DNA of 64,000 bases from Lytechinus variegatus. Lineage: Eukaryota > Echinodermata > Echinoidea > Temnopleuroida > Toxopneustidae. Positions 13,020 through 29,000 of the stretch are shown here, piece after piece. The stretch spans positions 31,459,934-31,523,933 of the forward strand of contig NC_054743.1 in NCBI RefSeq assembly GCF_018143015.1. Reading direction: 5' to 3'. Made by a program: the position numbers and the translations under genes. The notes below the pieces were generated by a model, which was not told the DNA's origin, made no database searches, and was given only the letters and a program-made list of their open reading frames with translations. Position 1 is the stretch's first letter; each line of letters starts with the position of its first letter.

Positions 13020-14187
13020 TTAGCAGCATATCCTGGGTTTTTCTGTAGGTTCTTCTAGCCGCAACGTTTCCCGCGGCATTGCGAATCCACCCTTGATGCC
13101 GTCCCATCCCTCCCTGATGCACAGGTCACCTGCTTCCAATTTGGAATAGATCTCTTTTGCCATGACCGAGAAAGCTGCTTCGACGTTAGTGCAAGCCTTG
13201 GCCGAGGTTTCTATAAATTTCATCCCGTTGGCGAAGGCAAAGCGTTCGCCTTCTTCTCTGTGTACTTCTCTCATATCCTCTCCCAAGTCCGTTTTGTGAC
13301 CCACCACCATGTATGTTGTATTGTGGGGGTAGATAACGTTCTCCTGAGCTTCCAGCAGCCACTCCTGCAGATTCTCAAAACTTTGTCTGTTTGAAATGTC
13401 ATAGACAAGCATCACGCCTACCGAGTTCCTGTAATAGGATGTAGTTATTGATCTGCAAAATGGAAACACAGAACAAATTATTTAAAGAAATTAAAATATT
13501 TGAATTGAGACCAGACATTTCAGATTTCACTTTTTTTCAAGAATTCATTAAATATCTGGCAACATTGGCATTAATAAGGCATGGCTTGCCTTAATTAGAG
13601 TTTACTAACAAAAAAGATACTTTCAAATTACAAAACATCTTACTAATTTGTAACTACTAACTGGTCTTGCCTTAATTTACTTAATTGTGATTAGATTTAG
13701 ATCTAGACCTATATTCAACTTCTTTGTGTTTTGTTTTTCTTTCTTTTCAGTCCGCTTAAAAGGCTTAATCAGCATGCTCACAAATTCATTTTTTTCTTCA
13801 TAATTTCACATTATTCTTAATTTATAATTAGCTAAGCCTTAGGCCTAATTCATGCATGTTTAATTAGAAGTTGACATTCCTTTTTCAAATCAAAAAGCAC
13901 TCTCAAGTCTCAACCATCTACTTTTGTTACCTGAATCTTTCTTGTCCAGCTGTATCCCACAGCTGCAGCTTGACTCTGGTCTTCGGGTTTACATTCACCT
14001 CAATCAGCCTCGCGTAGAAGTCCACTCCCACCGTGGGGTCGGAGACCTCAACAAACTTCCCATCGCAGAAACGGCGCAGTAACGAACTCTTTCCCACAGT
14101 GGAATCCCCGACTAAAATCAACCGAAATTGATATTCCCAAATTACTTCTGGAGGTAATCCTGCTATATCTTCTGACGAGGCTGTCAT
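13020..14187 (-). CDS. RAB39: Rab39-type small GTPase, two exons
   Basis: Exon 1 is 14,187-13,931 and exon 2 is 13,452-13,020, with a CAG/GTAAC donor, a TTGCAG acceptor and a 478-bp intron; the spliced product has 229 residues. Rab GTPases switch between GDP and GTP states on membranes; Rab39 works in late endosomal and autophagic traffic in mammals. Seen here: P-loop GDSTVGKS (27-34), switch I DPTVGVDF (50-57), WDTAGQE (77-83), the guanine-specificity motif as GHKTDL (137-142), ETSAK (167-171) and a C-terminal CC for double prenylation. A His before the Lys of the specificity motif, in place of the usual Asn, is also what human Rab39 has (GHKCDL). The CIREGWDG segment (197-204) matches the CIQDGWEG region of mammalian Rab39. 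The N-terminus is about ten residues longer than human Rab39. The gene is head to head with SLC35F. Confidence 0.95.
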
Positions 14188-15884: not shown

Positions 15885-16460
15885 GCAGTAGCGGATCCAG
15901 GGAAGGGCGGGGGGCAAAGCCAGCCCGTGCCCCCCCCCCCTGAGGCACAATTGAAATTTATAATGTAAAAATTCCGTTAGCAAGTGCCCTATTTTGCCAT
16001 CTTATAGGTGGTGCCCTTTCTATCAGTGCCCTTTTTACCCAAGAAAAGTGTCCCTCACGAACATGTTCTATGCCCCTTTCACCTGAGAAGGACCCATTTT
16101 ATTTCTGAGCAAGTGCTCCTTTGGCGCCCTGTCTCGACTCAGTTCCCCTGGGCCTTCCATGTGCCCCTTTCACCTGAGAATGATCCGTCTTATAACATTA
16201 GCAAGTGCCTTTTTGCCATGAGGTGCCCTTTCTCGTATCAGTGCCCCTTTTTACCTAAGAAAAGTGCCCACTCACACGAACGTGTTCTGTTCACCTGAGA
16301 AGGCCTTGTTTTATGTGTTAACGAATGACCCTCTGCCTTCCCATATGTGCCTGTAATTCTTCATATCAGATAAGATGTCCGAAAAAAAAACACTCTTTTT
16401 CATGCCGATCATCAGCGCCCGGTTTCTTTCTTTAGGCAGCTCTGCTGATCCCCGGGTCTG
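15885..16460. repeat. Imperfect long tandem repeat with C/G-rich start
   Basis: After a CAGTAGCGGATCCAGGGA motif and C runs (15,887-15,940), a block with GTGCCCTTTC, CAGTGCC, CCCAAGAAAAGTG, CACGAAC and CACCTGAGAAGG motifs (about 16,012-16,115) recurs diverged at about 16,222-16,330, a period near 210 bases. A shorter partial copy lies between. The CAG start resembles hAT-type ends, but no matching right end was found. Confidence 0.55.
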
Positions 16461-17004
16461 CTTCCTTCCTGCAAGTGCAAATTCCGGTACAAATTAAATC
16501 ATAAAGTATTCATATAGGCCTATATCACTTCAACTCGTCCATTTATTAGCATACTTCTATTTCACCGAAAGAAAGATTAAGAAATATAATTACAGGACAT
16601 CCGCCCTCCGCCCTCCCCCCCCCCCCCCCTCATTTGCATTTTACATTGCTGATTCGCGCCTGCATAATTGGTTGGGGTTTTTTTTCATGACAAATAATCC
16701 ATTAAACAAGCGAACATGCAATAATTTAATGGGGTAATTTCCCAGGGGTGCAGGAAAAGAATGGGAGGATATGCCAAAGTTGACTTAATTTTTTCCTCAA
16801 GGCTCTTGTCCCCGTACCCCCCCCCCTGATCTCTCCCTTATCAGTGCCCCCCCCCCCCCGTCGACTTCACAATAAAGTGTATAGACTCATCGCCAGTCAC
16901 TCTTGTCGCGTAAATATGACCTAGGTACGGTGTATGTAGTTTATTAAATTAACTGTGCACAAATTAAATGTGCATGTGGTAATTTCACAGCAGTGTTGTT
17001 CTCT
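16461..17004. other. SLC35F upstream region
   Basis: Carries C-rich runs (near 16,615, 16,818 and 16,850), then about 150 bases of ordinary sequence before the SLC35F start. An in-frame stop TAA lies at 16,945-16,947. Two out-of-frame ATGs (near 16,968 and 16,974) precede the start, so a 5' leader here could carry short upstream frames. Confidence 0.45.
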
Positions 17005-20000
17005 ATGGTTGCGACACCAGCCATGGCTCTCGGAAACGATGTTCCGTACGTTAGTACTACTGAAGAAATTCATTCCAGCTGTTGGACTAAAACAAGAAAA
17101 ATATTTTCACCTTTATTTACGATGTAAGTAAAACCATGAAAATTTTAATTTCAGATTTACCGGACTATCATTGAACCATCATCAAGCGCAAGCCGCGGTG
17201 CACGAGTTCGCATCCTCACTCTTCAGGGCAGCAAGGGCATGCGCTGTGCCTGTGAGTGTTGTGCTACTGCTGTCCATAGTTGCCTGGCCGTGGCTTTAGG
17301 GGCCTTGCGTACGTGCTGAAGAGAATGTGTGTAATTCGGGGTACAGAATCAGGGTACTAATGGATAATTCGTTTTTCATACCCGTTCAGCGTACAGCGAA
17401 AACGGAAAATCAGTACGTGGTTCGGTCTTTGAAAACAAAAAACGAAATCACAGCGTGAAAACCCGTGCTGTGATTTCGTTTTTGTTGATCAAAAACAGAA
17501 TAGGAAATCAGAAATGTTTTGGGCTCTCTCTGATTTCTCATTTTATATTTGTGTTTTTATGTATCAAAAACAAAACCAGAACACGCTCTCCGCTCCGTGA
17601 TTCCGTTTGTAAAAACGAAAGCAGCGAAGACGAGATCAGAGACGTAGACTCCCTTTTCCAGTCCCTGCAACGTGATTTCGTTTTTCGTACAACCTACAGG
17701 CATATTAAAGAGCGCCCTCCAGGAGGTGAGGCAAGTTTCAATGGAGATTTTAATAAACTGTACCACACATATTATGTTGAAGCCAGTTTAAAAGGAGGTG
17801 AGGCAAGTTTCAATGGAGGTTTTTATAACTGTACTCTAAATTATGTTGAAGCCAATTTAAATGGAGGTGAGGCATGCAGGTTTCAATGAAGCTCAGTTAT
17901 TTAAAAAGAATCAACTGTACCACACATTATGGTGAAGCCAGTTTAAAAGGAGGTGAGGCAAGTTTCAATGGAGGTTTTTTTCAAAATAAACTATGTAGGC
18001 CTACTACACATTATAGTGAAGCCAGCTAGTTTAAAAGATGGTGAGCTAGGCAAGTTTCAATGGAGGTTTTTATAACTGTACTCTAAATTATGGTAAAGCC
18101 AATTTAAATGGAGGTGAGGCAGGTTTCAATGGAGGTTTTTTCGAATAAACTGTACTACACATTATGGTGAAGCGGCACCAGTTTAAATGGAGGCGAGGCA
18201 AGTTTCAATGGAGGTTTTTATAACATACTCTAAATTATGGTGAAGCCAATTTGAATGGAGGTGAGGCAAGTTTCAATGGAGGTTTTTTAAAAAGAATAAA
18301 CTGCATGTACCACACATTATGGTGAAGCCAGTTTGAAAGGAGGTGAGGCAAGTTTCAATGGAGGTTTTTTAAAAAGAATAAACTGTACCACACATTATGG
18401 TGAAGCCAGTTTGAAAGGAGGTGAGGCAAGTTTCAATGGAGGTTTTTTAAAAAGAATAAACTGTACCACACATTATGGTGAAGCCAGTTTAAAAGGAGGT
18501 GAGGCAAGTTTCAATGGAGGTTTTTTAAAAAGAATAAACTGCATGTACCACAAATTATGGTGAAGCCAGTTTGAAAGGAGGTGAGGCAAGTTTCAATGGA
18601 GGTTTTTTAAAAAGAATAAACTGCATGTACCACACATTATGGTGAAGCCAGTTTGAAAGGAGGTGAGGCAAGTTTCAATGGAGGTTTTTTAAAAAGAATA
18701 AACTGTACCACACATTATGGTGAAGCCAGTTTGAAAGGAGGTGAGGCAAGTTTCAATGGAGGTTTTTTTAAAAAGAATAAACTGTACCACACATTATGGT
18801 GAAGCCAGTTTAAAAGGAGGTGAGGCAAGTTTCAATGGAGGTTTTTTAAAAAGAATAAACTGTACCACACATTATGGTGAAGCCAGTTTAAAAGGAGATG
18901 AGGCAAGTTTCAATGGAGTTTTTTTAAAAAGAATAAACTGTATCACACATTATGATGAAGCCATAAAAGTAATTGAGGCAATTAGTTTCAATGGAGGTTT
19001 TTTCAAAAGAATAAACTGTACACATTATTGTGAAGCCAGTTTAAATGCAGCTAAGGCAAGTTTCAATGGATCGAGGTTTTTTAAATAGAATAAACTGCAC
19101 ATTATGGTGAAGCCAGTTTGAAAGGAGGTGAGGCAAGTTTCAATGGAGGTTTTTTAAAAAGAATAAACTGTACCACACATATTATGTTGAAGCCAGTTTA
19201 AAAGGAATTGAGGCAAGTTTTAATGGAGGTTTTTATTACTGTACTCTAAATTATGGTGAAGCCAGTTTGAAAGGAGGTGAGGCAAGTTTCAATGGAGGTT
19301 TTTTAAAAAGAATAAACTGCATGTACCACAAATTATGGTGAAGCCAATTTAAATGAAGGTGAGGCAGGTTTCAATGGAGGGTTTTTTTTTAAAGAATAAA
19401 CTATACCACACATTATAGTGAAGCCAGTTTTAAAGGAGGTGAGGCAAGTTTCAATGGAGGTTTTTTTAAAAAGAATAAACTGTACCACACATATTATGTT
19501 TAACCCAGTTTTAAAGGAGGTGAGGCAAGTTTCAATGGAGGTTTTTATAATTGTACTCTAAATTATGGTGAAGCCGATTTAAATGGAGGTGAGGCAGGTT
19601 TCAATGGAGCTCAGTTTTTCAAAAAGAATAAGCTGTACCACACATTATGGTGAAGCCACTTTAAAAGGAGGTGAGGCAAGTTTCAATGGAGTTTTTTTCA
19701 AAAGAATAAACTGTACTACACATTATAGTGAAGCCAGTTTAAAAGGAGGCGAGCTAGGCAAGTTTCAATGGAGGTTAACTGTACTCTAAATTATGGTGAA
19801 GCCAATTTGAATGGAGGTAAGGCAAGTTTCAATGGAGGTTTTCTAAAAAGAATAAAATAAACTGTACCACACATTATGGTAAAGCCAGTTTGAAAAGAGG
19901 TGAGGAAAGTTTCAATGGAGGTTTTTAAAAAGAATAAACTGTACCACACATTGTGGTGAAGCCAGTTTGAATGGAGGTGAGGCAAGTTTCAATGGAGGTT

Positions 20001-23000
20001 TTTTCGAATAAACTGTACTACACATTATGGTGAAGCGGCACCAGTTTAAATGGAGGCGAGGCAAGTTTCAATGGAGGTTTTTATAACATACTCTAAATTA
20101 TGGTGAAGCCAATTTGAATGGAGGTGAGGCAAGTTTCAATGGAGGTTTTTTAAAAAGAATAAACTGCATGTACCACACATTATGGTGAAGCCAGTTTGAA
20201 AGGAGGTGAGGCAAGTTTCAATGGAGGTTTTTTAAAAAGAATAAACTGTACCACACATTATGGTGAAGCCAGTTTGAAAGGAGGTGAGGCAAGTTTCAAT
20301 GGAGGTTTTTTAAAAAGAATAAACTGTACCACACATTATGGTGAAGCCAGTTTAAAAGGAGGTGAGGCAAGTTTCAATGGAGGTTTTTTAAAAAGAATAA
20401 ACTGTACCACACATTATGGTGAAGCCAGTTTAAAAGGAGGTGAGGCAAGTTTCAATGGAGTTTTTTTTTAAAGAATAAACTGTATCACACATTATGATGA
20501 AGCCATAAAAGGAATTGAGGCAATTAGTTTCAATGGAGGTTTTTTCAAAAGAATAAACTGTACACATTATGGTGAAGCCAGTTTAAATGCAGCTAAGGCA
20601 AGTTTCAATGGATCGAGGTTTTTTAAATAGAATAAACTGCACATTATGGTGAAGCCAGTTTGAAAGGAGGTGAGGCAAGTTTCAATGGAGGTTTTTTAAA
20701 AAGAATAAACTGTACCACACATATTATGTTGAAGCCAGTTTAAATGAAGGTGAGGCAGGTTTCAATGGAGGGTTTTTTTTAAAGAATAAACTATACCACA
20801 CATTATAGTGAAGCCAGTTTTAAAGGAGGTGAGGCAAGTTTCAATGGAGGTTTTTTTAAAAAGAATAAACTGTACCACACATATTATGTTTAACCCAGTT
20901 TTAAAGGAGGTGAGGCAAGTTTCAATGGAGGTTTTTATAATTGTACTCTAAATTATGGTGAAGCCGATTTAAATGGAGGTGAGGCAGGTTTCAATGGAGC
21001 TCAGTTTTTCAAAAAGAATAGGCTGTACCACACATTATGGTGAAGCCACTTTAAAAGGAGGTGAGGCAAGTTTCAATGGAGTTTTTTTCAAAAGAATAAA
21101 CTGTACTACACATTATAGTGAAGCCAGTTTAAAAGGAGGCGAGCTAGGCAAGTTTCAATTGAGGTTAACTGTACTCTAAACTATGGTGAAGCCAATTTGA
21201 ATGGAGGTAAGGCAAGTTTCAATGGAGGTTTTCTAAAAAGAATAAAATAAACTGTACCACACATTATGGTAAAGCCAGTTTGAAAAGAGGTGAGGAAAGT
21301 TTCAATGGAGGTTTTTAAAAAGAATAAACTGTACCACACATTATGGTGAAGCCAGTTTGAATGGAGGTGAGGCAAGTTTCAATGGAGGTTTTTTCGAATA
21401 AACTGTACTACACATTATGGTGAAGCGGCACCAGTTTAAATGGAGGCGAGGCAAGTTTCAATGGAGGTTTTTATAACATACTCTAAATTATGGTGAAGCC
21501 AATTCGAATGGAGGTGAGGCAAGTTTTAAAGGAAGTTTTTTATAACCGTACTCCAAATTATGGTGTAGCCAATTTAAAAGGAGGTGAGGCAAGTGCCAAT
21601 GGAGTTTTTTTTATAACTGTACTACACATGAGTGTGAAGCCAATTGAAAAGGAGGTGAGGAAAGTTTCAATGTACGTTTCTTAAAAGGAATAAACTGTAC
21701 CACACATTATGGTGCAGACAGTTTAAAAGGAGGTGAGGCAAGTTTCAATGGAGGTTCCACTTTCTGCACCATGATTTGTTTTTTTTGTATGAGCTACAGG
21801 CAATATTAAAGAGCACCCTTCACGATAATTATACACGTGAACGCAGCGCTTGCATCGAGTCAGTACATACAGTGCAGGCATTTTTTTATACTACCACGTG
21901 CGTGATTGTGAATCAAGAAGTTGACAAGAAGCTACAAGATGGCTTTTTCAAGTGTGTCCATTGAAACTTGCCTCACCTCCTTTTAAATTGGCTTCACCAT
22001 AATTTGGAGTACGGTTATAAAGAACTTCCTTTAAAACTTGCCTCACCTCCTTTAAATAATACCAGTACAGTTTTTTCTTTTTAAAAATCTCCATTGAAAC
22101 TTGCCTCACCTCCTTTCAAACTGGCTTCACCATAAATTATTCTTTTCAAAAACCTACATTGAAACTTGCCTCACCTCCTTTTCAATTGGCTTCACCATCA
22201 TTTGTAGTAAGGTTATAAAAAACTTCCTTTAAAACTTGCCTCACCTCCTTTAAAATTGGTTTCACCATAATACCGGTACAGTTTATTCTTTTTAAAAAAC
22301 CTCCATTAATTGAAACTTGCCTCGCCTTCATTTAAACTGGCTTCACCATAATGTGTAATACATTTAATTCTATTAAAAGAAAACCTCCATTGAAATTGCC
22401 TCACCTCCTTTTAAATTGGCTTCAACATAATTTAGAGTACAGTTATAAAAACCTCCATTGAAACTTGCCTCACCTCCTTTTAAATTGGCTACACCATAAT
22501 TTGTTCTTTTTAAAAAACCTCCATTGAAACCTGCCTCACCTCCATTTAAACTGGCTTCACCATCATGTGTAGTACAATTCATTCTTTTTCAAAACCTCCA
22601 TTGAAACTTGCCTCACTTCCTTTTAAACTGGCTTCAACATAACATGTGTGGTACAGTTTATTCTTTAAAAAAAAAAAACTCCATTGAAACTAGCCTCACC
22701 TCCTTTTAAACTGGCTTCGACCACCATAATGTGTGGTACAGTTTATTCTTTTTAAAAAACCTCCATTGAAACCTGCCTCACCTCCATTTAAACTGGATTC
22801 ACCATCATGTGCAGTACAATATATTCTTTTTAAAAACCTCCATTGAAACTTGCCTCACCTCCTTTTAAATTGGCTTCACCATCATTTGTAGTACAGTTAT
22901 AACAAACTCCATTGGAACTTGCTTCACCTAGCTCCTTTTAACTTGGCTACACCATAATTTGGAGTACGGTTAGAAAGAACTTCCTTTAAAACTTGCCTCA

Positions 23001-26000
23001 CCTTTAAAATTGGTTTCACCATAATTTAGAGTACAGTTATAAAAATCTCCATTGAAACTTGCCTCACCTCCTTTTAAAGTGGCTTCACCATAATGTGTGG
23101 TACAGTTTATTCTTTTTAAAAAACTGAGCTCCATTGAAACCTGCCTCACCTCCATTTAAATTGGCTTCAACATAATTTAGAGTACAGTTATAAAAACCTC
23201 CATTGAAACTTGCCTCACCTCCTTTTAAACTGGCTTCAACATAATATGTGTGGTACAGTTTATTAAAACCTCCATTGAAACTTGCCTCACCTCCTGGAGG
23301 GCGCTCTTTAATATGCCTGTAGGTTGGAGGTTGTACGAAAAACGAAATCACGTTGCAGGGACTGGAAAAGGGAGTCTCTGATCTCGTCTTCGCTGTTTTC
23401 GTTTTTACAAACGGAATCACGGAGCGGAGAGCGTGTTCTGGTTTTGTTTTTGATGCATGAAAACACAAGTCACAGAGCGAAAATCGTGTTCTGGTTTCGT
23501 TTTTGATACATAAAAACACAAATATAAAATGAGAAATCAGAGAGAGCCGAAAACATTTCTGATTTCAATATTCTGTTTTTGAGCAACAAAAACGAAATCA
23601 CAGCACGGGTTTTCACGCTGTGATTTCGTTTTTTGTTTTCAAAGACCGAACCACGTACTGATTTTCCGTTTTCGCTGTACGCTGAACGGGTATGAAAAAC
23701 GAATTATCCATTAGTACCCTGATTGTACAGGCTGTTAATTCACTTGGATGTCGTGTGTGATGTCGGCTGCTTGCAGCACATCACATGCTACAAATGCATT
23801 CCTGTATGACGTGACTGTGAAAAAAGTATTTTTCAGTTTTACTGTTTCAAAAGAAATATTCCCTTTGTATATTTGTGCATATTGTTTAATATTTCCATCA
23901 ATATAAAGACCCGCCAATATAGCCAGGCTACATATTTACCCCACCCCAGTCTCTGTAACTTATGTCCCATCTCTTTTTTCTTTATCGATGTCTTATCATC
24001 ATGCTTATCGAGTCAAATCAAGAACAAGATTTTTCTCATCCCAATGCAGGAGTTGGATCTATATCCTTGTCTTTTTGTACAAACCTCTTGTAGGTCTACG
24101 TCTAATTAGTTTAATAACTACATCTAACTCCCCCTCCTTTTTTTCTTTTGTCTCTTTGGACACTTTCTTTCTTTTTTATTTTTTTACCTATTAAGTATTA
24201 GGCCTATATATTTAATGTTAGTTCTATGCATCCCCATAGTTTACTGTTATTTTTTGTATGTCATTCATTGTTGAGGCCTGAGGGGGCTTATTTTACCACC
24301 TATGCTTTCTTATAGAATATAGTCTCCTCATGTTTCTCATTAATTAAGTTATGTTGTTCTTATAATGTTCATTTACATGCCTTCATTTGTTTTCTTTTCT
24401 TACTTACTCTGCTTTTTTAATTGTTATCAATTTCGAAGTTTTGTATATTCTATTGTGCATGTTAAGAGAAAAAGACAAATAAATTTGAACTTGAACTCGG
24501 ACAACAGAAAGCCAAAAAACTAAAGTAAACTAGTTAGTAGTGTAATTTAATTCACTTTCCCAGGCTTGGAATTGGAAAAGTAGTCTATCCAAAAAGTCCC
24601 AATTAAGGAAGAATTCATGTCATGTTATTCTCTAACTTTGTGAGTTAAGTCTATCTTGTTTAAAAAGCTTGTGGCTTCTAACATATATTGTAGTAGACTA
24701 GGTAATTGAACGATGGACAGAGTGCATCACAGTGAGCAATTTCCCATCTTTTTCTCCTTTTTAGAGACATTTTAATAGTCCTTTCAAAAAACTGCTAAAT
24801 AAAACCCAGCAAACTTTGAACGATGGACAGAGTGCATCACAGTGAGCAATTTCCCATCTTTTTCTCCTTTTTTAGAGACATTTTAATAGTCCTTTCAAAA
24901 AACTGCTAAATAAAACCCAGCAAACTTTGACCAGTTAGTTTTGTCCAGTAGCTTTAAATGAAACTGTTTCAAAACCATGAAACACATATTTTGTCCATTA
25001 TGCACAGCTTTGCTTACTTCACTGAAGTTACTGTGCCAAGGATCTTCTTCCGTTGAGTACAGTCCTCTATGCTTTCTTTGCTCCACCAAGATCTCCGATC
25101 TTAGTGGAGGAAGAACACGAGAGAGAGTAGCCATGATGATTCATAATTTTTAAGGCCACCACTAGAATTCACATAGGTAGTGAATAGGTAGTGTAGCACA
25201 TTTTAGCTGGTTTGCTAAAACAAACTAACTCAGACACAGAAAGTTTATTTTTATCATTTTATTTTCACCTGCTTATTCTATTCTTCTTTATTTAGCACTA
25301 GTTATCTTTATTACCCTGTTACTTAAAGGGCCCAGAAACTGACAAATCATGGGGAAATACGAAACTTGCAAAAGGCCAATTGACTTGCATAATATAATCC
25401 GTCCGTCATGAGCGCCCGTCGGACTAATGCGATAAAAGTTCGGACAGCACGAATTTGACCGAACTTGTGATGGTTATTTACTTCGGATCATCGCTGTTCC
25501 AGTTTCCAACAATCCCAATTCATAGACTCATGGCAGGTCTCTTGATTGCAAAACCAAAATAAATCACCACTGTGAAGTTACATGATTCAAAGTGAAAACA
25601 CGCAGTTTACATCTGGTCGGTTAGTCTATTGCTCTCAAGACCTCCCAGACATGCCGGCGTCTATTACATAACACCCCCAGGCATGCAGCCGAGTGGAATC
25701 CCTTCTCTGTTCTGAGATAAGCCTTGATTTCCCCATGATTTGTCAATGAAAGGTCGCTTTAACACTTACGTTTGTGAATTGCAAGTTACTCACATCTCAT
25801 TTTACTATAAAATCTTTCTGTTTGTTCATGGCAGATCTTTCCTGAAGGTTTTCCTTGGAGGCCAAGCATTGTCCTTGCTCATCTGTGGCACAGGGGTCAC
25901 CAGCCAGCTCCTGAACGACAATCATGGAATCAACGCCCCCACTACCCAGAGCTTTGCAAACTATCTTCTCCTGGCGCTGGTGTACTGCACCCTCTTGTGC

Positions 26001-29000
26001 CTGCGCAAGACCAGGGAGAAGAACTTTTACCACATCTTCACCAAGCGATGGTGGAAGTACATTCTGATAGCACTCGTAGATGTGGAAGCAAACTACTTGG
26101 TGGTGAAGGCGTACCAGTATACAACTCTTACGAGTGTACAGGTAGAAATACACCTTTTCATTGTGATGTCATGAAAATAAAAGAAGTAAAATATATGGAT
26201 TATTAAGAGCAGCAGTGTGCTATATTTGTCTAGCTATTTAGATAATTTTAAGTTTATCTTTTTCTCCATTCATCTCACCATAATTCAGCATTTGATATTG
26301 ATTAGCAAAATTAAAACCAGGCTCTGATTTTATACCTGATGCAGGTTACTGCTTTGGCACCTCCATTGCAAAGATAAAGGGAAGGATGATGCTTTACTTG
26401 CAGACAATTTATATCAATTATTTTTATTACTCTGTTTATATTCCTCTTTTAGCTGTTGGATTGTATCACCATACCTGTGGTAATCTTACTGTCGTTCCTC
26501 ATCCTGCGTACTCGCTATCGCATCATTCACATTGCTGGTGTGGTAACATGCATTGCTGGCCTTGGGGCTCTCATTGGAGCTGATGTACTGTCAGGCAGAG
26601 CTGGTGGTAAGCCAATTTTCATTAACACAACGGCTTGGATAGCCAATCGTGTAAAAATTTGACTTCGCATTTGGTGCTCAATTCATTAATACTGTACTTG
26701 TTTGGGAGTAATAATGAGTAAATATACTTTTCTTTTTGATAAGTGTTTGGATAAAGACCATAGTAAATATAAGAAATATATAATCTTCACAAAATCATGA
26801 CTGTTTGGCTTCTCATAATTTTGGCATTGACTTACCTCGGTCTAAGTTAAACCGGACTTGGTCATTGTGTTTTTCATTTACAATGTCCACTGATTTCATT
26901 ACATTTTAAAGTAAATGATTTTTTGCTTTTCTTTAATAGTCAATTAAGGGTCACACAGGGTAATAAATTCTAAAAATCAATTTGGTTATTCAACATTCTT
27001 TGGCTATGAACCTCTGCTAGTGTCTAAGATGAGTTGATACTTGATCAAATTTTCCAGAAAATTATGTGTAGAAAATGTATTATGATGAGAATTCATCTTT
27101 ATGCTGATAAATCTCTGGAATGGCATCTGGGAGAAATAAAATAGGGTATCTTAGCAGAGAATATCTAGAGGGATTTCATGAAGCAGCTTGTAAGTGACTT
27201 TCACTGACAGCTGTTGTAAACTACTGAAATTCTTGCATCTGATTTGCTGATAGCAAAGTCATGAATGAAAGTACAAGCAAAATGATTTATGAAACTGACT
27301 GCATGTTACAGTTATTCCAGGTTCAAGAATATTTTAATATTTCCAGAGGGAGATATTAAAGATGACAGGACAGACAGGTGGCCATTCGTAGAATTCCTGG
27401 ACAAAGCAATAAAATGGAACACAGTATATGCATTGGTATCCATTTAAATGCTTCAGCTGCACAGGCAACTGTCCTGTTTTTAGGGCCCAAATAAATATAT
27501 GCAATAAATTTTTACCCCACACATTGTGGATTGGTTTCTGGTCATGCCCTAGTTGAAAAAAAAAGATGTGCTTGCAACAGTGATCTTGACATTTGCAACT
27601 ACATGTAGGTCACAGATCTTGTATTTGTTGTTTTCATCAAAGAATAGGAGTTCCTAACCATGGGATGTGATTAGAAGTGTGTAAAGCTGTATTTACGATA
27701 CATTTTTTGACATAAATTTAACCACAATTTATCTTTTTATATAGGGAGGTTGGGAGAGAGAGAGAGGGTGGGGTTAGAAATTGCAAGTGTGTTGACCCCA
27801 TAAGTCACAGATCCCTCTCAACTTTGCTAATATATAATAACAGAATTTTAGGATTTTTCCTGGTGAACTCACTTGAGATAGTGATGAAGTCAAGTGATTT
27901 TGCTTTAGCCATGAAAGAAATCAAGCTCGAAAAATGAAATAGCAAGGGAAATTAGTATGAGTTGATTATAGTACATTTTCTTCGCATATGTTTTTTAAAT
28001 TGTATCTTTTTTAGGTGAATCGTAGGTTTCAATTTTATTAAATCCATCTCTTTTTACTTGATTTTTTTTTAATTTGCAGATGGCACAGCCCAGAACAAGC
28101 TATTGGGTGACATTTTTTGTTTGCTTGGAGCAAGTCTTTATGGTGTCTCCAATGTAGCACAGGAGTATGTGGTCCGTCAGTACACACGGACAGAATTCTT
28201 GGGCATGGTCGGACTCTTTGGGACATTTGTATCTGGAATACAACTGTGAGTAGGATGAATTGTTCATGATTTCAAAATCATTTTTGGCTGTTCAATTTTT
28301 TTTATTTGGGCAGTCGAACATTTTTGATGGTGTTTTGTGTTATTTTCATTGTTATTGATCACTCTGTTTTTATATTTGAATAAACGTAGATGATATTTCC
28401 TCCCCTTCCTTTCCCTGCCTCTCTCGTCCCCTCCTTTTTCACTGATCTGTGACCACTTTCCTTTTGCTCTTTTTCTCTCTTTCCTCATGAGTTTGAGACC
28501 ATCTGTTGACAAAGTCTTCTCACTTTCCATAACTTCTGTTTATGTTTCACTATTCTGTATGGCAATATAGAAGGTAAAGTTGGGATTGGCATTTTAAGTT
28601 GAAGGATTAATTCAGTTTATTTTGAAGTGTAATGTTCTTTACTGAAATTCCACAGCTTGTGATTTTACACAATTTTCCTAAAATGTGTACTTTGTGACTT
28701 TGTCATTTGTGAACTACCATTTACCCAAATCATAAAATCCTTTTTATAATCTTTATTGCTGTATCTTATCATTTAGTCAGCTATAAAATGTTTGAGTTAG
28801 AGAAGGTTCATTGTACTCGATTCTATTACATGTTTTATAACCTTTATTTTAAAGGTAAAGGTTAGATTAGGGGAGCGTTAGAATTCGTAACATAGATCAG
28901 GTTTTGAATGTAAATTTCTGTTATGGTTTCATTGTTGCAGATTGAATAGTCTGTCTCTATAAAAATCTTGTCTTCAATAGTACATGGATTTATAGAAATA

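Follow-up and report, generated by a model that had tools for sequence, protein, structure and literature searches.

A probable foldback-type DNA transposon with minisatellite arms, and a second paired-arm family that carries the same array unit

The window, that is, the whole stretch of 64,000 nucleotides analysed here, contains a 6,378-bp element at 17347-23724 (C4:31477280-31483657) that is flanked by exact GTACAG repeats, and we are confident that it represents a non-autonomous cut-and-paste DNA transposon of the foldback type in an echinoderm genome. It has the structure of a foldback element, namely, long inverted arms with tandem repeats around a middle segment, and it has the features of cut-and-paste transposons with terminal inverted repeats (TIRs), namely, inverted ends, a duplication fixed at 6 bp in 16 of 18 copies, and two empty sites. 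Foldback elements are already known as a kind and this family, here called family A, is a variant of that kind. What is new is the observation that its 78-bp array unit also occurs in another paired-arm family, family B, with known outer sequence unrelated to that of family A.

Results and Discussion

Architecture of the element

The termini of the element are exact inverted repeats over 141 bp and are 99% complementary across 156 bp. The parts of the element and its flanks are as follows, TRF being Tandem Repeats Finder.

17341-17346, no strand: left target-site duplication GTACAG, an exact repeat of the right flank
17347-17720, plus strand: left outer domain, 374 bp, starts AATCAGGGTACTAATGG (terminal alignment, word count)
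17721-21752, plus strand: left minisatellite array, about 50 units of ~78 bp (TRF, core-motif count)
21753-21956, plus strand: spacer, 204 bp, between the opposed arrays
21957-23295, minus strand: right minisatellite array, the left-array unit inverted, about 18 units (TRF, core-motif count)
23296-23724, minus strand: right outer domain, 429 bp, ends CCATTAGTACCCTGATT (terminal alignment, TRF)
23725-23730, no strand: right target-site duplication GTACAG, an exact repeat of the left flank

A first-pass annotation of this DNA had described an element of 6,378 bp with exact GTACAG duplications, perfectly inverted termini, outer inverted domains of about 400 bp and two opposed arrays of a 78-bp unit around a 200-bp spacer, and the measurements bear out this description. 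TRF reported a 78-bp period across 17721-21753 with 52.4 copies; on the reverse strand it placed arrays at about 21957-23295. When core motifs with at most two substitutions were counted, the left arm had 50 and the right arm 18. No array unit lies in the wrong orientation. Each unit contains two 21-bp sub-repeats. The arms are unequal, the array being about 4.0 kb on the left and 1.3 kb on the right. The left array has large internal duplications (for example, at an offset of 1,390 bp, 99% alike over a 300-bp reference), and the longer right outer domain has a 53-bp tandem duplication at 23417-23521. The 12-bp word AAACGAAATCAC, picked post hoc after inspection, has five matches with at most two mismatches, in mixed orientation, in the 374-bp left outer domain, where 1,000 shuffles averaged 0.13 and never exceeded 3; it has six matches in the right outer domain and, at the same threshold, was not found in the spacer. 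The repeats of Galileo have been demonstrated to contain extra transposase binding sites (PMC3688188), and by analogy the subterminal word AAACGAAATCAC may have a transposase-binding role.

Copies in the genome

The search covered an assembly of 869.6 Mb in 33 contigs. The fear that no other copy would share the ends of the element falls away because the exact 21-bp end occurs 119 times (63 and 56 on the two strands), while the reversed-sequence control occurs 0 times. Among 100 of these 119 ends, 64 form 32 head-to-head pairs that are 2.6-20.1 kb apart (median 6.0 kb). A search with the spacer gave 56 candidates, of which 40 were scored and have identities of 86-100%.

The copies that were read are the strongest matches to the window's outer domain. 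Of 20 copies or part-copies, all but L012 have a spacer landmark, and 17 have a spacer of 178-208 bp (L009 has an insert and L020 reads longer). In the 19 with the landmark, no array unit lies in the wrong orientation. With gaps ignored, the left arms of 17 copies have a mean identity of 99.3%, and in many cases two copies do not differ at all across about 370 bp of arm. Apart from gaps, some of these arms are the same as the window's left arm, in which there is a small insertion. Arm lengths range from about 1.1 to 7.7 kb, the outer domain and insertions counted in. Because arm lengths vary among copies and the window's left array has large internal duplications, the arms may lengthen and shorten through unequal exchange or slippage. 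At a separate locus, L032:201-3821, three transposon ends in the same direction lie 1.13 and 1.15 kb apart in nearly identical repeats, and L048 has a similar arrangement.

Target-site duplications and empty sites

An exact 6-bp flanking duplication was found in 16 of the 18 copies read at both ends, one of them being L014, whose right end was moved by one base (the terminal T read as C) and which is otherwise a miss. Left and right flanks paired wrongly gave an exact 6-bp match in 0 of 306 pairings. Excluded from this count were L016, L017, L019, and L026, which have one end only, and the host copy around L010. Other copies thus share both the ends and the 6-bp duplications, which was the check that the first-pass annotation had proposed.

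Insertions of the family into its own copies provide built-in empty sites. Copy L010 sits inside the outer domain of another copy with TCAGAG doubled around the insertion, and the uninterrupted sequence with a single TCAGAG occurs twice in each of the eight other loci checked. It occurs once in the window, where the window's left arm differs. Copy L025 is inserted into the end of another copy with AGTACC doubled, which gives a second paralogous empty site. From the near-identical arms and these self-insertions with empty sites, it is concluded that the family probably moved recently. At L037:201-231, 31 bp of transposon end lie within a Ty3-type integrase region with a few target bases missing; this single case would fit imprecise excision and may be an excision scar. 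L037 had been considered as an integrase-bearing copy and was rejected as such, being a Ty3-type element that encloses these 31 bp.

Coding content

The longest open frames, up to 282 amino acids (aa), extend from the outer domain into the array, and four of the longest had no Pfam match at E 1. Neither the element nor the portions of copies read showed a recognisable core transposase, no genome-wide search for transposase families having been made. These results agree with the earlier statement that the element has no protein gene. We therefore infer that the transposase acts in trans. A transposase encoded elsewhere would recognise the terminal AATCAGGGTACTAATGG, and perhaps also repeated subterminal words, would cut, and would then insert the element with a 6-bp stagger.

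Stretches outside the array in L009, L014, L015, L017, L027, and L028 were taken for nested insertions. Interiors common to several loci were considered as shared element content and rejected, as they are unrelated high-copy repeats. For a ~870-bp repeat on contig C6, at 13416569-13417446, a first look across the genome gave 2,453 candidates, and the 40 that were scored, itself included, have 97-100% identity. A 20-kb copy on contig C3 (24232362-24252497), read except for 24240262-24246599, looked autonomous and was rejected on finding a nested element of ~14.7 kb in its left arm. This nested element (C3:24233017-24247684; L029:756 to L030:1085) has CCCTTATAAA inverted ends, a TA duplication, and CACCATT-rich repeats near its ends, and a family B copy contains its left 344 bp, at 99% identity, at about C1:20028552.

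Older relatives

At 20 loci with unpaired ends, those lacking an exact opposite end in the vicinity, at least 1.5 kb was read of each, and the array unit was not seen in 18 of them, while it is present in L042 and L049. Among these 18, one is the L037 remnant and the rest keep at least the first 20 bases of the end, mostly with a diverged outer domain. At C4:16629759-16633560 lies a relative whose inverted arms, about 960 bp long, are 90% identical and which has a ~192-bp tandem array of its own. Both ends were read in four older relatives (L056, L050 with L058, L039, and L057). The 6.7-kb old copy L056 has 10 open frames without a Pfam match, and in the 3.8-kb old copy L050 with L058, whose open frames were listed only, no transposase was recognised. 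Since relatives share the ends and do not have the 78-bp array, the transposon ends look older than the array.

The array unit in a second paired-arm family

The exact 27-bp core of the unit occurs 1,872 times in the genome (control 0), and 463 exact unit cores lie within the 17 copy stretches that were counted; the host copy around L010 falls in one of these stretches. At C1:20022300-20041300 the inverted outer domain around the array units is another one, that of family B, and the outer domains of the two families have no similarity beyond chance (best E 2.5). A search with the B outer domain gave 64 candidates. Among the 40 that were scored, 36 form 18 head-to-head pairs 2.2-18.9 kb apart (median 10.3 kb, the distances being those from match to match, not from end to end), and 0 neighbours are in the wrong order. 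Exact units were found at all three of the B loci on contig C1 among these 40, the three that the unit check covered; at the B locus C1:33503067-33505261 the units are on one strand only. The B units match the A arrays at about 88-92%, and both A unit types are visible by eye in L060, a B locus. In the B copy on C1, about 4.1 kb lie between the last exact unit of the left arm and a nested element, and the array unit was not seen by eye in the 552 bp read of this interior. Five short open frames of the B locus gave no Pfam match. Family B is known from outer-domain sequence, its termini lying beyond the stretches read.

The array, or its ancestor, would thus be shared between the two families. 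That the minisatellite is a module passing between transposon families is a tentative proposal, which two foldback-like families with unrelated outer domains, both carrying the array, confirmed for family B at three loci, with both unit types in mirrored arms, make possible. Exchange of the array may take place by recombination or by template switching through folded arms, and the array may benefit each family, for example, as extra sites that hold the two arms together.

Alternative explanations

Several observations weigh against the conclusion that the element is a non-autonomous foldback transposon. The copies read were selected for their match to the window's outer domain and the subterminal word was chosen after inspection. 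Copy L011 has no duplication and L009 matches at 5 of 6 bases, and among 100 of the 119 ends, neighbours within 25 kb lie on the same strand in seven cases and run minus-then-plus in one. Of the older relatives, L056 and L050 with L058 have no matching 6-bp flanks by eye, the flanks of L039 match at 5 of 6 bases, and L057 lacks a clearly defined right end. An autonomous partner was not found at the 20 loci with unpaired ends, in searches for divergent ends, or in the two old copies. Finally, L017:2874-4229 is a 452-aa frame with an Integrase_H2C2 domain inside a 4.6-kb insert in a foldback arm. This frame has an Arg/Ser/His-rich tail and Pfam finds no core integrase domain in it; we read the insert as nested sequence within the arm, it being also possible that the frame belongs to the element.

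According to one paper, most foldbacks seem to fall within Mutator (PMC4079207), for which duplications of 8-11 bp are given (PMC6446971), while IS256 and MuDR together are given 4-10 bp (PMC10045372). The 6-bp duplications, constant in 16 of 18 copies, are shorter than those of Mutator-like elements (MULEs), the 9 bp of Rehavkus and the 7 bp of Galileo, and they fit poorly with all three. Dada elements make 6-7 bp duplications, in small-RNA genes, and those described are without TIRs (PMC3706591), whereas the window element has perfect inverted ends. The length of the duplication, and length only, agrees with Polinton/Maverick and IS3EU/GingerRoot (PMC10045372) and with hAT6 (PMC12730594), and the element could be a gene-less derivative of one of these 6-bp-duplicating superfamilies. 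We consider this quite unlikely because no gene of the Polinton, IS3EU/GingerRoot, or hAT groups was recognised in the copies read, no search for the hAT transposase family having been run, and because the 20-kb copy, its middle unread, is explained by a nested insertion. The CAGGG at bases 4-8 of the end does resemble hAT ends. Polinton ends typically begin with AG, which speaks against that group. The ends of IS3EU are TA..TA and those of GingerRoot mostly so, occasionally TG..CA (PMC10045372), whereas the ends here are AATCAGGG..CCCTGATT.

The larger spacing of the B matches and the one B copy with a non-array interior would suit family B as the autonomous or ancestral partner of family A; this is very unlikely, since a single transposase that binds two such dissimilar outer domains is not expected and the five short B frames gave no Pfam family. 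Membership in the TU family of Strongylocentrotus is somewhat easier to entertain and still unlikely: the modular plan is similar, and the 8-bp duplications and 15-bp outer tandem units of TU would speak against it. Foldback elements are on record from sea urchin (PMC4079207). Chimeric reads can create long inverted repeats, and the element might then be an assembly palindrome or a segmental duplication; we give this next to no weight because the copies have different flanks, exact 6-bp duplications, a shared spacer that is not inverted, and empty sites. A non-autonomous foldback transposon remains our preferred explanation.

Other features of the window and the host

Near-perfect tandem duplications with a 99% match lie at 1987-2852 and 24706-24930 of the window, with units of about 433 bp and 111 bp. 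On each side of the element lies one open frame with a Pfam match, to a Ras-family GTPase (PF00071) at 13020-13469 on the minus strand and to an SLC35F transporter (PF06027) at 25740-26174 on the plus strand. No Rfam match was found at the gathering threshold in 16000-25000 of the window.

The COX1 gene of the mitochondrial contig C33 has 12 in-frame TGA codons under the standard code and is one open frame in table 9, the table 5 frame being of equal length. We take table 9 to be preferable on residues presumed to be conserved (for example, Asn as AAA in SSNIAHAGG) and not on a computed score. An ND4L-like frame follows COX1, an order typical of sea urchins. The mitochondrial code fits an echinoderm, which is probably a sea urchin.

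Comparison with known foldback-like elements

In the open-access literature searched on foldbacks, sea urchin, and TU, none of the titles and abstracts listed describes this family. The TU elements have a modular inverted-arm plan with short tandem units in the outer domain and 8-bp duplications. TU is like this element in being hosted by an echinoderm and in its modular inverted arms, whereas here the tandem unit is ~78 bp and lies in the inner domain and the duplications are 6 bp.

Tetris of Drosophila virilis also has a flanking domain followed by an array of long units (~220 bp), and it has no conserved reading frames and its transposase was not found; it differs in unit length and in its 8-10 bp duplications (PMC4079207). 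Galileo has long inverted ends, tandem repeats inside them in some groups, and variable arm length, but its duplications are 7 bp and it has relatives with a P-type transposase (PMC3573991, PMC3688188). The Mutator/foldback element Tm1 of Meloidogyne shares composite inverted ends and a variable number of tandem units, and differs in having 9-bp duplications, ~14-bp units, and one group with a putative transposase (PMC3169594). Rehavkus has a minisatellite inside a TIR element as well, but this lies before the 3' TIR, the duplications are 9 bp, and the element has its own transposase (PMC6446971). These foldback-like elements have duplications of 7-10 bp, and the close copies with 6 bp described here suggest that the foldback plan also arose with another transposase. 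With one minisatellite in two element families, the formation and exchange of foldback arms can be tested in a single genome.

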